A DNA stretch of 64,000 nt from Holdemania massiliensis AP2 (GTDB lineage: Bacteria > Bacillota_I > Bacilli_A > Erysipelotrichales > Erysipelotrichaceae), in the NCBI RefSeq assembly GCF_000327285.1, contig NZ_HE998567.1:1077210-1141209 (forward strand). Reading direction: 5' to 3'. Positions 4,103-46,476 of this stretch are shown here, piece after piece. The notes beneath the pieces were generated by a model. That model saw only the letters and a program-made list of their open reading frames with translations. It made no database searches and had not been told where the DNA came from. The first letter of the stretch is position 1, and each line of letters begins with the position of its first letter. The position numbers and the translations under genes were made by a program.

Positions 4103-5002
4103 TCAATTTGGTTGTGATCCTTCTTTCTTTTCCATTTTCAAATGAATGTCCTGCTGCGGATACGGAATCCCGATACCCGCTTCATCCAGCGCTTCCTTCA
4201 CCGCCAGCCGCAGGCCTCGTTCTACTTCCCAATGACGGCACGGCAAGGTACGGCAGACTACCGTAATATTGACAGAAGAATCAGCCAGATCGGTAATCCC
4301 TTGAATTTTCGGCTGTTCAACCAGAATATCCTTCACTTCTTCGGCATAGGCCTTGACGGCCTGATCCAGAACTTCCATAACCTGCCGCGTATCCGCTTCA
4401 TACGGCGTGCCGACTGTGATTTTTGCCAGCGAATCCGTTCGCGAATAATTGATCACCCGGCCGATCGATCCATTGGGAATGATGATCTGCTGACCGGCAA
4501 AGTTTTTCAGATAGGTCACACGCATGGCGGTTGCCGTCACCGTCCCTTCAACATCATCCAGCTTAACATAATCGCCAACGGAAAACTGTTTTTCAAACAT
4601 CATGAAAAAACCGGTGACCACATCTTTAATCAGACTCTGCGCCCCGATGCCTAAAGCCAGCGAGCCGATCCCAGCCGATAACAACAGATTGTTGATCGCG
4701 TTGCCAAAGCCCAGCTGCGCCAGAATCATCAGCGCGCAGATGCCGTAAACGATATAGCGGAATGTGCTGCGGGTCATCGTCATCATCGTCTGTACGCGGC
4801 GGGCCTGCATTTCCGGCATATCCTCGGATTTTTTGATCTGTCTGGCCGTCATTCTTGAAATCAGATCCAGCACCAGCTTGCCGCCTAAAATGACAAGCAA
4901 AATCCCAACGCCTTTCCAAAACAAAAGGCCGCTGTTCTCTGCGAGCGTGCTTAGAAAACCATTGAAATACTCAGTGATCGTTTTACCTAGAATACCAGTC
5001 AT
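4103..5002 (-). CDS. mscS: MscS-family small-conductance mechanosensitive channel
   Basis: Membrane channel that opens on hypo-osmotic shock to release solutes. The 299-residue protein fits the small MscS class: N-terminal hydrophobic helices (about residues 22-45 and 78-100), a pore-lining TM3-like helix rich in Gly/Ala (AINNLLLSAGIGSLALGIGA), then the soluble beta/alpha-beta domain beginning FEKQFSVGDYVKL. The conserved FMMFEKQFSVGD and IIIPNG segments are present. GGGGGA precedes the ATG. It lies behind the S9 peptidase gene on the same strand but with a 67-base gap, so linkage is uncertain. Confidence 0.92.
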   Translation of the reverse strand: MTGILGKTITEYFNGFLSTLAENSGLLFWKGVGILLVILGGKLVLDLISRMTARQIKKSEDMPEMQARRVQTMMTMTRSTFRYIVYGICALMILAQLGFGNAINNLLLSAGIGSLALGIGAQSLIKDVVTGFFMMFEKQFSVGDYVKLDDVEGTVTATAMRVTYLKNFAGQQIIIPNGSIGRVINYSRTDSLAKITVGTPYEADTRQVMEVLDQAVKAYAEEVKDILVEQPKIQGITDLADSSVNITVVCRTLPCRHWEVERGLRLAVKEALDEAGIGIPYPQQDIHLKMEKKEGSQPN

Positions 5003-29895: not shown

Positions 29896-30867
29896 ATGAT
29901 GAAACCTATGCGAATGACTCATTTCAACAATGCTAACGTGGACGTCAGCCAGTTAGCGGTCGGAACCTGGGGCCTGGACAGTCTGCGCTGGAATGGCGCA
30001 ATGAGCGAGACCGAAGCGATTGAAGCCATCCATGCGATGGTAAAAGGCGGCGTCAACCTGATCGACACCGCTCCCAATTACGGCAATCACAGCTCAGAAC
30101 AGATTGTCGGCCGAGCGATTCAGGGCTTAGATCGGTCAAAAATCTTCATTTCCACCAAGTTCGGCACCCACAACGATCTGTTTACCGGCGGTGTCTTCCG
30201 CGACGCGCGCTTCGGCACTGTCATGGAAGAAATGGCCAGCTCCCTGCGCAATCTTCAAACTGATTATGTCGACTTCTATTTCCTGCATTGGCCGGATACA
30301 CATACGCCGATTGCGGAAACGATGTGCGCTCTGAACTTTCTAAAGCAACAAGGCAAAATTCGATTTATTGGTTTATCCAACTGTGATCAGGCTTTATTGG
30401 AAGAAGCGATGAAATACGGTCAGGTTGATGTTATTCAGCCGCCGTTCTCAATGATCGATCAGCGGTATAAGTCCTTGATGAGCTGGTGTCACAAACACGG
30501 GATTGATACGATGACCTACGGTTCTTTAAGCGGCGGCATTCTGACCGGACAATTCCGCGAAATTCCTGACTGGCCTGCCAACGACGTGCGGTTATCCTTT
30601 TATAAAGGATTTCGTCCGGATGTCTTTCCGCGGGTTATGGAACTAATGAGAACGCTGGATGAAATCGCTGCAGCTCACAATGCGCCTGTCAGCCAAGTCG
30701 CCATCAACTGGTCAACGCAGAAAACGTATGTATCCACTGCCTTAGTCGGAGTCCGCAGCGTTCGGCATGTCGCAGAGAACATCGAGACCTTTGCCTGGAA
30801 GCTCAGTGACAACGAAATGCAGAAAATCGACGCCAAGCTTGAGGCACTTCAGCTGGATCAGCTTTGA
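29896..30867 (+). CDS. aldo/keto reductase
   Basis: NADPH-dependent carbonyl reductase of about 323 residues, AKR TIM barrel. The catalytic tetrad is visible: Asp and Tyr in NLIDTAPNYGNHSSE, Lys in IFISTKFG and His in DFYFLHWPD; the cofactor end has IRFIGLSNCD and VALVGVRSVRH-like sequence. Several in-frame ATGs follow AAAGG at 29891-29895 (29896, 29899, 29908), and 29908 (MRMTHF) may be the true start. It follows the isomerase-transaldolase-dehydrogenase set and may reduce a product of the same pathway. Confidence 0.9.
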   Translation: MMKPMRMTHFNNANVDVSQLAVGTWGLDSLRWNGAMSETEAIEAIHAMVKGGVNLIDTAPNYGNHSSEQIVGRAIQGLDRSKIFISTKFGTHNDLFTGGVFRDARFGTVMEEMASSLRNLQTDYVDFYFLHWPDTHTPIAETMCALNFLKQQGKIRFIGLSNCDQALLEEAMKYGQVDVIQPPFSMIDQRYKSLMSWCHKHGIDTMTYGSLSGGILTGQFREIPDWPANDVRLSFYKGFRPDVFPRVMELMRTLDEIAAAHNAPVSQVAINWSTQKTYVSTALVGVRSVRHVAENIETFAWKLSDNEMQKIDAKLEALQLDQL

Positions 30868-30945
30868 TTTCTTCGTCATTGCAGAAAACGATTGTAAACA
30901 CCACGTATAAATCATTGTTGTTTTGCGCAACAAAACTCAAAAGAG

Positions 30946-30974
30946 TTGCTTAAATAACGTTGCTGAGTTATACT
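30946..30974 (+). promoter_or_regulatory. strong sigma-A promoter for the small RNA
   Basis: TTGCTT (30946-30951), exactly 17 bases, TATACT (30969-30974). The predicted start, about 7 bases downstream, coincides with the first base of the closing stem of the RNA. Confidence 0.65.
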
Positions 30975-30980
30975 AAAAAG

Positions 30981-31114
30981 GGAAAGCCGGGGTCAATCTC
31001 TTTCTATCGGGCATTCGTATTCAACGCCCTTGCAGCGTTTCTTCTTAAAAGTTCCTATCTTTTAAGATTCTTCCCATACCCTGCCTTTTAGAAAAGAAGG
31101 CTCTGCGGCTTTCC
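30981..31114 (+). ncRNA. candidate structured small RNA, about 134 nt
   Basis: No ORF fits here. GGAAAGCCG (30981-30989) and CGGCTTTCC (31106-31114) form a perfect 9-bp closing stem. Inside are three hairpins: AACGC/GCGTT (31023-31039), TCTTAAAAG/CTTTTAAGA with a 7-base loop (31043-31067), and GCCTT/AAGGC (31083-31101). An alternative GGGC/GCCC pairing competes with the first. Together they give a multi-branched layout, unlike rod-shaped 6S RNA, and the conserved SRP RNA loops are absent. A consensus promoter starts at the right place and a long hairpin follows. I do not recognise the RNA family; it may be a trans-acting RNA, since no gene follows on this strand. Confidence 0.5.
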
Positions 31115-31137
31115 TCGTCAAAAAATAAGAACGATGA

Positions 31138-31186
31138 TAAAAATAAAACGAAACTCCGCATTGGAATTTCGTTTTATTTTTAAAAA
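31138..31186. terminator. bidirectional terminator between the small RNA and the flavoprotein gene
   Basis: A perfect 15-bp stem, AAAAATAAAACGAAA with TTTCGTTTTATTTTT, has a 13-base loop and A- and T-runs on both sides, so it can serve both converging transcripts. Confidence 0.85.
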
Positions 31187-31215
31187 CTTTAATTTAAATC
31201 GATGCTTGTTTGCGT

Positions 31216-33762
31216 TTACTGATGATCAGCTGCGATACTGTTGGCTGCGGTCCGGCCGGAAACGAAGATCTCAACGATCGCGTTGCCGCCCAGACGATTG
31301 CCGCCGTGGATACCGCCGGTAACTTCGCCTGCCGCATATAAGCCTTCAATGACGCTGCCATCCGCATTCAGGACATGCCGGTCTGTATCAATCGTCAAAC
31401 CGCCCATCGTGTGATGCGTTGACGGAGCCATGATTCTGATTCGCAGCATAACGCCATCCAAGGTATACGTGTCAGCCTTGTAGTTGCCCTTTTCATCTTT
31501 TTCCGCCGAACCGATAATATCGCTGGCCTGGCTCTTAGCGACATCCGCAGGCTGTTCGCCGGCCATGATCGCTTTGTCGTAAGCTTCAATATTCGCGTAA
31601 ATCGTCGCCGGATCAGCCTTCATGCCGAACTGATCCAGAATCGTTTTCAGTTCATCCTGACTGGAAGCGAAGTAAACCCGGTTTTCAACGTCCTCCTTGC
31701 CGGAAACGTTGTTGGCATAATCATCATACGGATAAGGCCGTCCAACCATCACATCGGCATTGGAGATTTCTAAGAAAACACCCTGGGAACCCTGAAGTTC
31801 AATCCCATTTTCAAATTCACCTAACGACAGAACATCGCGTTCTGCGGATTCGTTGACGAAGCGATTGCCGGTTGTCGGATTGATATAAACCGCATAAGTT
31901 CCTGCACCAAAGGCCAGGTTGCCGTTGTCAATCCAGGAAATCGGCATCATCTGTGTCCAGCCTTCGCCTGTCGTTGCCGCACCGACTTCTTCGCCCATCG
32001 TGATGCCGTCGCCGACTAAGGATGAACGATTGGTTGTCTTGGTATTGGAAGTAATGAACTGCTTGTTCCAATATTCATTGGTGTCGATGACTTTCTGAAT
32101 GTTCGCCGCATAACCGCCGGTCGCCAGAACCACGCCCTTGTTGGCATGCGCAATCACTTTGGTGCCGTCATACATCGTTGCCTGAACACCGGTAACCTTG
32201 CCGTCTTCAAGGATCAGATTTTCCGCCTTGGTGCGCGTCATAATCTGATTCTCACCGGCCGTTGCCGAAGTTTTCAAAACCGTATTCTTGGTCGTTGCGA
32301 AATATGTTCCCCACTGTGCGGGTTCCTCAGCTTTTCCATCGCCGTCCAGATCACCGCCGCCGAAGCCGTTTTCACGATACCACAGCGCCCCGATCAACGT
32401 CGGCTGGCTGGCATCATCAAATAATGCACCCTGATCTTCCAGCCATTCTTTTAAGCCCTGGCCGTCATTGATAAACTGGCTGACCAGATCATAATCACCG
32501 TAAATCCACTTTGTCATATCTGAATTCGCCCGCAGACCGCCGTAGTAAGTCTGGAAAATATGCAGGTTGACCGTTGAGAACAACGTGATTTCATGTTCCT
32601 GAACACCTTTGTCCAGCTGCGGCTGCGCCCAGTCCAGATAAGCCTGAATTTCTTTTTTCAGCGCCTTTAATGTTGGCAGATATTCCTGATGCACGCCATG
32701 CTTGCTCAGCTCTTCAATATCCCCGGCGACATATTCATGATCTTTGTAATAAGCTTCATCGAACGGTTCTTCCGACCAGTTCAGAATCGTCTTTAACGTA
32801 TCAATGCAGCCTTGAGTTGACATGACTTTATCATAAGTCTGTCCATTGTAATCCCAGACGGCAGTCTTGGCATCCGGATTCTTGGCATCCCAAACCAGAT
32901 ACGGCATAACGGACTGGAACGCACCGCCGGAAACCAGCGTATTGCCGCCGATTTCAGCATTTTCTTCCAGCACGAGCACAGTTTCGCCATTCTGCGCTGC
33001 CTGGGCTGCGGTTCCCATTCCCGCGCCGCCTGCGCCGATGACAACGACATCATAGGTCAGATCAATATCGGCCTGAGCCGGATGGTCCACGGTATTCTTC
33101 TTGAATGCGTTCATGTTTGTCGCTTCCGCCTGAGTAGCAGCGTCATTTAAAGCGTCTTTGATCGCACGGCTGGTGAACGTCGCACCGGAAACCGAATCTA
33201 TGCCTGAACCGTTGGCGGCAATCGCATCCGCAAACAGGATATCAAAGGCCGGTGTGCCAACGTGCGCAGTTTCACCGGAGGTCTTGATCTGGATATCCGT
33301 GATCGCTTTGTCGCTGAATGTGACATCCAGTTCAACCGGTCCATTGTAGCCTTCGGCGGTGCCGGTATACGTTCCCGCTTTATAAGTCAGCTCGCCGCCA
33401 ACCTCAGCGCCTTCGCCCTTGGCTGCGGCAATGGCTGCCGCGGCCGCTTCCTTAACGCCGCCGGAAGTTAACGTGGCCCCCGAGACCCCATCAATTTCCG
33501 CACTCTGCGCCGCCAGAATCTGATCTTTCAGCGTTTCCAGCTGAGCTCCGCCGATGGCCGGCGTTTCATTCTCCCCGGCAACGACAACCTCGGTGATCTT
33601 GTCTTTGTCAGTTGTGATCGTAACAGAAACGGTGCCGCCGAAGCCCTGACCTTCGCCGGTGTAACTGCCTGGAGTATAGGTGCCTGCCTGATTGGATGTG
33701 TTCGAGCACGCGCTCGTCATCATCAACAATCCCGCAAGCAGCAGTGGTAGTAATTTTTTCAT
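31216..33762 (-). CDS. exported FAD-dependent oxidoreductase with two FMN-binding domains (fumarate/urocanate reductase-like)
   Basis: Cell-surface lipoprotein of 848 residues. A lipobox ends at Cys19 (MMTSAC). Two FMN_bind domains follow; their flavinylation motifs are DGVSGAT (Thr97) and DSVSGAT (Thr195), where ApbE-type transferases attach FMN. From about residue 235 comes a FAD_binding_2 flavoprotein (DVVVIGAGGAGMG), with the active-site HHTMGG and the C-terminal GLYAAGEVTGGIHGGNRLGG. Such proteins act as extracellular reductases of fumarate-like or other acceptors fed by membrane electron transfer. AGGAGG precedes ATG 33762; a longer frame to 33789 overlaps the promoter. The electron acceptor is unknown. 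Confidence 0.92.
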   Translation of the reverse strand: MKKLLPLLLAGLLMMTSACSNTSNQAGTYTPGSYTGEGQGFGGTVSVTITTDKDKITEVVVAGENETPAIGGAQLETLKDQILAAQSAEIDGVSGATLTSGGVKEAAAAAIAAAKGEGAEVGGELTYKAGTYTGTAEGYNGPVELDVTFSDKAITDIQIKTSGETAHVGTPAFDILFADAIAANGSGIDSVSGATFTSRAIKDALNDAATQAEATNMNAFKKNTVDHPAQADIDLTYDVVVIGAGGAGMGTAAQAAQNGETVLVLEENAEIGGNTLVSGGAFQSVMPYLVWDAKNPDAKTAVWDYNGQTYDKVMSTQGCIDTLKTILNWSEEPFDEAYYKDHEYVAGDIEELSKHGVHQEYLPTLKALKKEIQAYLDWAQPQLDKGVQEHEITLFSTVNLHIFQTYYGGLRANSDMTKWIYGDYDLVSQFINDGQGLKEWLEDQGALFDDASQPTLIGALWYRENGFGGGDLDGDGKAEEPAQWGTYFATTKNTVLKTSATAGENQIMTRTKAENLILEDGKVTGVQATMYDGTKVIAHANKGVVLATGGYAANIQKVIDTNEYWNKQFITSNTKTTNRSSLVGDGITMGEEVGAATTGEGWTQMMPISWIDNGNLAFGAGTYAVYINPTTGNRFVNESAERDVLSLGEFENGIELQGSQGVFLEISNADVMVGRPYPYDDYANNVSGKEDVENRVYFASSQDELKTILDQFGMKADPATIYANIEAYDKAIMAGEQPADVAKSQASDIIGSAEKDEKGNYKADTYTLDGVMLRIRIMAPSTHHTMGGLTIDTDRHVLNADGSVIEGLYAAGEVTGGIHGGNRLGGNAIVEIFVSGRTAANSIAADHQ

Positions 33763-33787
33763 ACTTTCCCTCCTTTTCGGTTTCACC

Positions 33788-33819
33788 ATTATAAACCTGT
33801 TAGCGGCTTACAGGTCAAT
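33788..33819 (-). promoter_or_regulatory. promoter of the 848-residue flavoprotein with an inverted repeat in its spacer
   Basis: On the minus strand TTGACC (33814-33819) and TATAAT (33788-33793) are 20 bases apart. Between them ACCTGT (33795-33800) and ACAGGT (33810-33815) form an inverted repeat, well placed for a repressor. The long spacer could make the promoter activator-dependent. Confidence 0.45.
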
Positions 33820-34025
33820 TGCTTTGTGAAAGTTTTATTGCTTTCATTGACCTTTTTTGCAGGATTTCTCCAAGCTCTGACTGCTTGATTCCTGGAAGAT
33901 CCTCGTTTTCTGGTCAGAATCCTCTGTTTTTGTGCATAAATGGACAATATTACAAAGAATACAGAAGATAATCCATTCAAACTGCTTCCGGCGTTCTATA
34001 AAATAAGAACCAGGAGGAAGGAAAA

Positions 34026-35816
34026 ATGAAAAAAATTGTTAAACTGATGCTTTCTGTCATGATGATTGCTTCGATGGCTGCGTGCAGCTCGGCACCGAAG
34101 AATGATCAGGGCGGGGAAGGCAAATTCAAAGCCGGTACCTACACGGGCACAGCCCAGGGAAATAATGGGGATGTGACCGTCGAAGTCACCTTGAGTGCCG
34201 ATAAGATTGAAAAGGTTGAGGTCACAGAACACAAGGAATCCGCAGGAATTTCCGATGCGGCTATCGCCAACATTCCAGCAACGATTGTTGAATCCCAATC
34301 ACTGAATGTCGATACAGTTTCTGGGGCAACGCATACTTCGGACGCCATTCTGGATGCGGTCAAAGCGGCATTAACAGAAGCTGGGGCCGATATTGAAGCC
34401 CTGATGAGCGGTGAAGGTGCAGCCAAAACGACCGTCACTTTGGAAGATAAGACCTATGACGTCGTCGTATTAGGCGCTGGCGGAGCAGGTCTGTCGGCAG
34501 CGATTGAAGCGCAGGCTGCGGGAGCCAATGTCGTTGTCATCGAGAAAATGCCGTATGTCGGCGGCAACACGATTTTGTCCTATGCCGAACTGGCCTGCCC
34601 GAACAACTGGCTGCAGGAAGAACAGGGCATCGAAGACAGCCCGGAACTGATGGCCAAGGAAATGTGGGAAGGCGGCGGAAAGGTCGCTAAAAAGGAAATG
34701 GTCGATATCGTCGTCAACAACGCGACGGCAGCCGCGGAATGGCTGCGTGACGAAATCGGCGTCAAGTATCAGGATTATCTAGTACAGGAAGGCGGCCACA
34801 GCGTACCGCGTGCCGTTGAACCAATTGAATTAGGCCCAGGCATGATCAATCCGTTAAAGGACTATGCTGAAAGCCACGGTGTTGAAATTATGCTGAACAC
34901 CAAAGCAGAAGAGTTGATCCAGGATGAAACCGGCAAGGTTGTCGGTGTTCAAGTTTCTCAGGGTGATCAGACCGCTACGATCTCCGCGAACAACAGCGTT
35001 GTTCTGGCGACCGGCGGATTCGGCGCCAACGTTGAAATGCGCGAACACTACAACACCCGCTGGGAAACCTTAGACGCTTCTGTCAAAACAACCAATTCCC
35101 CGGCGATTGTCGGCGACGGTATCGTCATGGCGGAAAAGATCGGAGCCCATCTGATCAATATGGAACATATTCAGCTGTACCCGTTCAACAATCCGATCAC
35201 CGGTGTTTTCTATGGTATTGAAGCACCGAGCTGGTCAAGTGAAGGTCTGATCTACGTCAACAAAGACGGCAAGCGTTTTGTCAACGAAGTCGCGATGCGT
35301 GATGTCCGTGCCGAAGGCATTCTGGCTCAGGGCGGTCTGGTCTATGCAATCTACAACCAGGAAGTCGCGGATCGGCTGAACCTGGAAGAAAAGTTCGCGG
35401 ATGAATATGCCCGCTGCTTGGAAGATGGTGTCTTCTTCAAGGCCGATACACTGGAAGAAGTCGCTGACCATTACGGCATCAATGCCGAGAACCTTGTTGA
35501 AACGATGGCGAAGTACAATGAAGGCATCGAAAACAACAACGATGAATTCGGACGGACAACCAGCATGGTTACAATGAAGGAAGGCCCTTGGTTCATTCTG
35601 GAAGGCGTCGTTTCCGTTCACCACACCATGGGCGGCGTTGAAATCAATGAAAATGCCGAAGTTCTGGATGTCGAAGGCAACGTTATGCCGGGTCTGTTTG
35701 CGGCAGGTGAAGTCACCGGCAGCATCCATGGCAACAACCGTGTCGGCACCTGCGCGATCGCTGATATCACCGTCTTCGGACGGATCGCCGGCCGCAATGC
35801 CGCCGCTGCGAAATAA
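34026..35816 (+). CDS. exported FAD-dependent oxidoreductase with one FMN-binding domain (fumarate/urocanate reductase-like)
   Basis: Lipoprotein of 596 residues, lipobox to Cys20 (ASMAAC). One FMN_bind domain has the DTVSGAT motif (Thr102); a FAD_binding_2 domain starts near residue 143 with DVVVLGAGGAGLSAAIEA, and the catalytic region has HHTMGGVEIN and the C-terminal AAGEVTGSIHGNNRVGTC. The domain order matches urocanate reductase and soluble fumarate reductases of anaerobes. It is divergent from the larger flavoprotein at 31216, and AGGAGG precedes the ATG. Natural acceptor unknown; candidates are unsaturated carboxylates such as fumarate, urocanate or cinnamate derivatives. Confidence 0.93.
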   Translation: MKKIVKLMLSVMMIASMAACSSAPKNDQGGEGKFKAGTYTGTAQGNNGDVTVEVTLSADKIEKVEVTEHKESAGISDAAIANIPATIVESQSLNVDTVSGATHTSDAILDAVKAALTEAGADIEALMSGEGAAKTTVTLEDKTYDVVVLGAGGAGLSAAIEAQAAGANVVVIEKMPYVGGNTILSYAELACPNNWLQEEQGIEDSPELMAKEMWEGGGKVAKKEMVDIVVNNATAAAEWLRDEIGVKYQDYLVQEGGHSVPRAVEPIELGPGMINPLKDYAESHGVEIMLNTKAEELIQDETGKVVGVQVSQGDQTATISANNSVVLATGGFGANVEMREHYNTRWETLDASVKTTNSPAIVGDGIVMAEKIGAHLINMEHIQLYPFNNPITGVFYGIEAPSWSSEGLIYVNKDGKRFVNEVAMRDVRAEGILAQGGLVYAIYNQEVADRLNLEEKFADEYARCLEDGVFFKADTLEEVADHYGINAENLVETMAKYNEGIENNNDEFGRTTSMVTMKEGPWFILEGVVSVHHTMGGVEINENAEVLDVEGNVMPGLFAAGEVTGSIHGNNRVGTCAIADITVFGRIAGRNAAAAK

Positions 35817-45582: not shown

Positions 45583-45672
45583 GGAGAATTGGCCGAGTGG
45601 TTTAAGGCACCATCTTGGAAAGGTGGCGAAGTGGCAACGCTTCCGTGAGTTCGAATCTCATGTTCTCCGCCA
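45583..45672 (+). tRNA. tRNA-Ser (anticodon GGA)
   Basis: GGAGAAT acceptor arm pairs with GTTCTCC; discriminator G; encoded CCA end at 45670-45672. The anticodon arm CCATC-TTGGAAA-GGTGG gives GGA. A long variable arm and GTTCGAATC T-loop are present, as expected for serine tRNA. Confidence 0.96.
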
Positions 45673-46389: not shown

Positions 46390-46476
46390 CCCCAGGTGGC
46401 GAAATTGGTAGACGCAAACGACTCAAAATCGTTCGGTAGTGATACCATGCCGGTTCGAGTCCGGCCCCGGGGACCA
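46390..46476 (+). tRNA. tRNA-Leu (anticodon CAA)
   Basis: CCCCAGG pairs with CCCGGGG except for one A-C at position 5-68; discriminator A; encoded CCA ends at 46476. Anticodon arm AACGA-CTCAAAA-TCGTT gives CAA. The GTGGCGAAATTGGTAGACGC D-arm and long variable arm are leucine-specific features. Confidence 0.95.

Follow-up and report, generated by a model that had tools for sequence, protein, structure and literature searches.

A probable new small RNA gene restricted to Holdemania, with a conserved palindrome at its promoter

The locus and its promoter region

The window analyzed here is a 64,000-nucleotide stretch of the Holdemania massiliensis AP2 genome, and all positions below refer to it unless stated otherwise. 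By blastn, the region of interest was found in three of four Holdemania genomes, including the window's own (G000) and two congeners (G001 and G002); it was absent from a fourth, smaller Holdemania genome (G003). In each of the three genomes, the region is downstream of the same aldo-keto reductase (AKR) gene; the cluster to which this gene belongs (KduI/IolB family, transaldolase family, Fe-ADH, and AKR) is conserved as well. On the other side of the region in the window, an 857-aa FAD/FMN-binding reductase-like gene with two FMN_bind stretches (31216-33789, reverse strand) is convergent with it and separates it from the next reductase gene (34026-35816). The features of the region are as follows.

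30934-30947, no strand: 14-bp palindrome AACTCAAAAGAGTT, centered near -40 and overlapping the -35 box; probable operator
30946-30951, forward strand: -35 box TTGCTT, weak (3/6 to consensus)
30969-30974, forward strand: -10 box TATACT, inside the conserved TGAGTTATACT; identical in all three species
30980-31115, forward strand: RNA body, candidate small RNA of 136 nt; fold z -4.83; matched by the covariance model in three Holdemania genomes
30980-30994, forward strand: 5' arm of the closing stem P1; 15 pairs kept in all three species
31043-31067, forward strand: 9-bp hairpin with the loop TTCCTAT; such pairing in the window's species only
31053-31074, forward strand: conserved C/U-rich segment TCCTATC-N5-AGATTCTTCC, partly loop or single strand; proposed pairing region
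31099-31115, forward strand: 3' arm of P1; 15 pairs kept in all three species
31138-31182, forward strand: intrinsic terminator, AT-rich hairpin with a T tail; not conserved beside the RNA in the congeners

The initial annotation described a consensus promoter at this place. The sequence TTGCTT-N17-TATACT is indeed present, with 17 nt between the boxes and GGGAAAGCCG beginning at 30980, but TTGCTT agrees with TTGACA at only three of six positions, and a consensus promoter scan of 30700-31400 listed no site, compared with 1.0 expected in shuffles. The best support for the promoter is conservation, not consensus: 23 of 30 columns of the -35 to -10 region are identical in the three-species alignment, where the counterparts of the -35 box are TTGTTT and TTGTAT. 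As read from the -10 box, the RNA would start at 30980/30981, at the G of GGAAAGCCGGG, which is the base of the closing stem.

The palindrome is identical in 14 of 14 columns among the three species, compared with 1 of 12 in its upstream flank, and it occurs once in the window's genome. Its center lies 39.5-40.5 bp upstream of the putative start. Class II activators commonly bind with a center near -40; a repressor at the palindrome would fit as well. The lengths of the half-sites and spacer resemble those of the CRP/FNR family, and the palindrome does not resemble a Rex site. At least one protein exceeded the cut-off for HTH_Crp_2 in each of the four Holdemania genomes; because all 14 control genomes have such proteins too, these matches say little. 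Further AACTC-N4-GAGTT sites in G001 and G002 differ in their spacers. Use of the palindrome as a regulon marker was rejected. The pair found in G003 has the look of a hairpin terminator: at about 4371-4401 of locus L064 (G003:C8:35370-35400), two tandem AACTCATTTGAGTT-type palindromes are followed by T's.

Fold and conservation of the RNA body

The predicted fold of the body (-46.7 kcal/mol, z -4.83) was equalled by none of 200 shuffles, and z was -6.22 for the body together with the terminator. In the best predicted fold, two hairpins cap an interrupted rod. The perfect 9-bp closing pairing reported initially is there (30981-30989 with 31106-31114), whereas the three hairpins drawn inside it are not the best fold: the simple three-hairpin drawing reached -32.4 kcal/mol, compared with -46.8 kcal/mol for the unconstrained best, and imposing the third hairpin (GCCTT/AAGGC) on a full fold gave -40.0 kcal/mol, which is 6.8 kcal/mol worse. 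The GGGC/GCCC pairing, taken initially as a hint of a switch, is not supported as one: its bases are not conserved, and imposing it makes the fold 4.5 kcal/mol worse (-42.3 kcal/mol). On reading the body, no ATG was found between 30980 and 31115.

All 15 pairs of P1 are standard in all three sequences: nine are invariant, three have one-sided changes, and three have two-sided changes, the outermost of which involves G-U pairs. The closing stem shows some of the compensatory changes that the initial annotation had asked for. In the whole 28-pair structure, there are seven two-sided changes, compared with a shuffle mean of 3.4, and only 1 of 500 shuffles was as high; sliding the structure along the alignment as a control gave zero to two pairs with two-sided changes. 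Three sequences make for thin covariation, and the alignment tested is also the one that yielded the structure; these figures support P1 and the structure rather than prove them. Inner helices 2 and 3, which keep only about 80% of cells, are not established.

Conservation is concentrated in the promoter, the palindrome, P1, and the C/U-rich segment. Scoring gap columns as not identical, we counted identical columns among the three species as 11/14 in the 5' arm of P1, 11/51 in the 5' half of the interior, 22/28 in the C/U-rich segment with its flanks, 8/26 in the next segment, 11/16 in the 3' arm of P1, and 1/17 in the downstream flank. The C/U-rich segment is the best-conserved piece of the interior and, by unpaired probabilities, is largely unpaired in the predicted folds, in which it is partly paired in G002 and part of it also pairs in G001 and in the window's species; in G002 and G001 the pairing takes in part of UCCUAUC.

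Distribution and known RNA families

A covariance model built from the three Holdemania sequences found these genomes at 114-130 bits, with a single copy in the genome at the model cut-off. Nothing else credible was found in 195 family genomes or 294 order genomes (the sets overlap), in searches that, above 40 genomes, used stricter filters by which weak relatives may be lost. The sole match outside Holdemania (G141, E 0.007) was rejected, as by eye it appears to lie in an ABC-transporter reading frame and is at chance level for the number of genomes. Homologues of the AKR gene at E <= 1e-90 occur in 13 of the 195 family genomes, the three Holdemania included, and an unfiltered model search at nine AKR loci of other genera (L105-L113) gave 10.2 bits at best. 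Although family-wide blastn yielded 'matches' at E <= 1 in 145 of 195 genomes, those listed outside G000-G002 were short, and one of them (L012) was judged by eye to lie inside a reading frame. The core motif was found in 24 stretches of the genome collection, two of them in Holdemania; the other 22 either went unmatched at E <= 10 or scored no higher than 19.2 bits. Five stretches in viral contigs also carry the core motif, and a search of viral contigs for the promoter pattern gave no hit; plasmids and phages gave none. The RNA is restricted to Holdemania as far as the search tools reach.

An Rfam scan had been proposed as a check. With Rfam 15, the whole window gave two tRNAs only at the gathering score and nothing at the RNA. 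The tRNAs are tRNA-Ser(GGA) at 45583-45672 and tRNA-Leu(CAA) at 46390-46476. At E <= 10, the best match (E 0.15) was to a plastid 3' UTR family; it lay at the terminator but on the opposite strand and was below gathering. The lax matches look composition-driven, and none reaches the gathering score. No family thus matches the RNA at gathering, or meaningfully at E <= 10. Together with the promoter and body conserved in three species and some compensatory changes, this result supports the description of the locus as an unrecognised structured RNA.

The RNA had also been judged not to be 6S RNA, and we agree: RF00013 does not match it at gathering or at E <= 10, and there is an Rfam-level 6S RNA elsewhere in the genome. 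That gene, the only 6S match of the genome, is outside the window at G000:C1:1048039-1048200 (reverse strand) and scores 53.6 bits, above gathering. The candidate is like 6S RNA in its long closing stem, rod-like shape, and own promoter, but it is shorter and without a match to the model.

Among the RNAs included in Rfam is RsaA of Staphylococcus aureus. The candidate's C/U-rich segment is comparable to the C-rich sequence of RsaA, but the candidate has no Rfam match and belongs to another genus. According to PMC3961350, RsaA is a Gram-positive small RNA whose C-rich pairing sequence acts at the Shine-Dalgarno sequence and by loop-loop contact. RoxS/RsaE of Bacillus and Staphylococcus is, according to PMC5419742, a trans-acting Firmicutes small RNA with C-rich regions and a promoter under a dedicated transcription factor; the candidate differs in having no Rfam match and the motif UCCUAUC/UUCUUCC. 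The main text of a structured-RNA survey (PMC8040213) does not mention Holdemania, and the sole mention of Erysipelotrichaceae in the available text of PMC11109978 is the idnO motif, which lies between manX and idnO, a different place. Our literature search found no study of this RNA and no Holdemania small-RNA study; a large microbiome candidate list could contain the RNA.

Hfq (PF17209) was found in none of the four Holdemania genomes (G000-G003), whereas 5 of the 14 reference genomes searched as a control gave a match. Holdemania seems to be without Hfq.

Downstream genes, possible function, and targets

Beyond the RNA, each of the three species has a different arrangement. In the window, no credible forward-strand gene lies just downstream, and the 857-aa gene is at this place in the window's species only, both congeners being without it. 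In G002, about 222 nt separate the RNA from the ATG of a same-strand reductase homologous to that at 34026-35816. The first gene after the RNA in G001 is a same-strand 115-aa ORF with no Pfam match, and a promoter-like TTGACA-17-TAAACT follows the RNA. The initial argument that no gene is downstream, so that the RNA is not a riboswitch, is true of the window but does not carry over to the congeners, in both of which a same-strand gene follows. The hairpin terminator is likewise a matter of one species: a strong AT-rich hairpin with a T tail stands at about 31138-31182, but in G001 the nearest strong hairpin-plus-T is 670 nt from the RNA start, and in G002 none was found before the next gene. 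A terminator of its own, as looked for in a stand-alone small RNA, is present in the window and was not found near the RNA in G001 and G002. The window's terminator probably works in either direction and so would serve the convergent gene 31216-33789 too. Because the downstream arrangement differs in three species while the promoter and body stay, selection seems to act on the RNA itself as a unit. Keeping the promoter and body whatever follows favors a gene of its own.

We place the probability at about 0.5 that the locus encodes a stand-alone, Hfq-independent, Holdemania-restricted trans-acting small RNA, whose C/U-rich segment pairs with ribosome-binding sites and which is controlled by a regulator at the palindrome. 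Like a stand-alone small RNA, it has its own conserved promoter, no coding capacity, and a conserved body. We infer the transcription, regulator, target, and effect as follows. A regulator bound at the palindrome near -40 would control the promoter with the weak -35 box, and transcription would begin at the first base of the closing stem, giving an RNA of about 136 nt, or about 205 nt with the terminator. The closing stem would protect and frame the RNA, while UCCUAUC...AGAUUCUUCC is predicted to be displayed in loops and single strands. This segment is complementary to purine-rich ribosome-binding sites, and the RNA would most likely block or otherwise modulate the translation of at least one mRNA in trans without Hfq.

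An unlikely alternative is that the RNA is the 5' leader of a downstream gene, probably the FAD/FMN-binding reductase, and acts in cis in the manner of a riboswitch or by binding a protein; ancestrally, the RNA would then have stood between the AKR gene and the reductase, and its separation from the latter in the window's species would be secondary. The main argument for this reading is that no terminator was found close to the RNA in G001 or G002. The same-strand ORF after the RNA in G001 also speaks for it, as does the reductase of G002, with no terminator found between it and the RNA. A constant same-strand downstream gene, expected of a riboswitch or cis-acting leader, was not found: three species have three arrangements. 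In the window, the terminator and the convergent 857-aa gene part the RNA from the reductase, and still the promoter and RNA are conserved; the G001 ORF has its own promoter-like site after the RNA. The reductase also keeps about 100 nt of upstream DNA (33923-34026) strongly conserved in all three species, which suggests a promoter of its own. Within this stretch are TTTTTGTGCAYAAA, which forms a palindrome in the congeners, and, immediately ahead of the ribosome-binding site, a TTCTATAAAATAAGAA inverted repeat.

A structured RNA that works without base pairing, whether as a protein ligand or in a housekeeping role (6S-2-like, or a different decoy), appears rather improbable. The rod-like fold with its long closing stem and open tip, the own promoter, and the single copy at the model's cut-off would suit it, but the RNA matches neither 6S nor any other Rfam family, the genome has an Rfam-level 6S RNA elsewhere, only one genus carries the candidate, and its interior is best conserved in a C/U-rich piece that is for the most part unpaired. 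That the palindrome is the best-conserved piece would fit a conserved DNA element, consisting of a regulator site and promoter, with a downstream structure of no RNA function; we regard this as very unlikely, given that P1, with its paired changes, and the C/U-rich segment are conserved up to 135 nt past the start.

Within the small RNA reading, a more daring and rather doubtful version can be drawn from the CRP/FNR-like geometry (5-bp half-sites, 4-bp spacer, center near -40 over a weak -35 box): in an Hfq-less gut Firmicute, a dimeric activator may switch on a genus-specific RNA gene that governs a redox or sugar regulon in trans, with only the stem and seed under strong selection. The locus is probably a new, genus-restricted small RNA gene whose general kind is already known; a large class gains one more candidate, and no new principle is involved. 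A conserved small RNA whose control site can be identified would offer a way into post-transcriptional control in Holdemania, a gut genus.

No supported target emerged from tests of the reductase mRNA, GATAGGARC, and GGAAGAAT. The complements of the segment, GATAGGA and GGAAGAATCT, resemble ribosome-binding sites. The mRNA of the nearby reductase was set aside as a target, ranking 37 of 60 window genes, and GATAGGARC near ATG was about as frequent as a reversed control. GGAAGAAT near ATG exceeded its control, but such letters abound in ribosome-binding sites in any case. Among 10 GGAAGAAT stretches that we read, only one orthologous pair is a gene start: GGAAGAAT-N7-ATG, identical in G000 and G001, stands at the start of an ORF (L126, L127) that looks permease-like by eye. 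With an 8-nt complement of the conserved segment of the RNA, which may be due to chance, this ORF would be a weak target lead.
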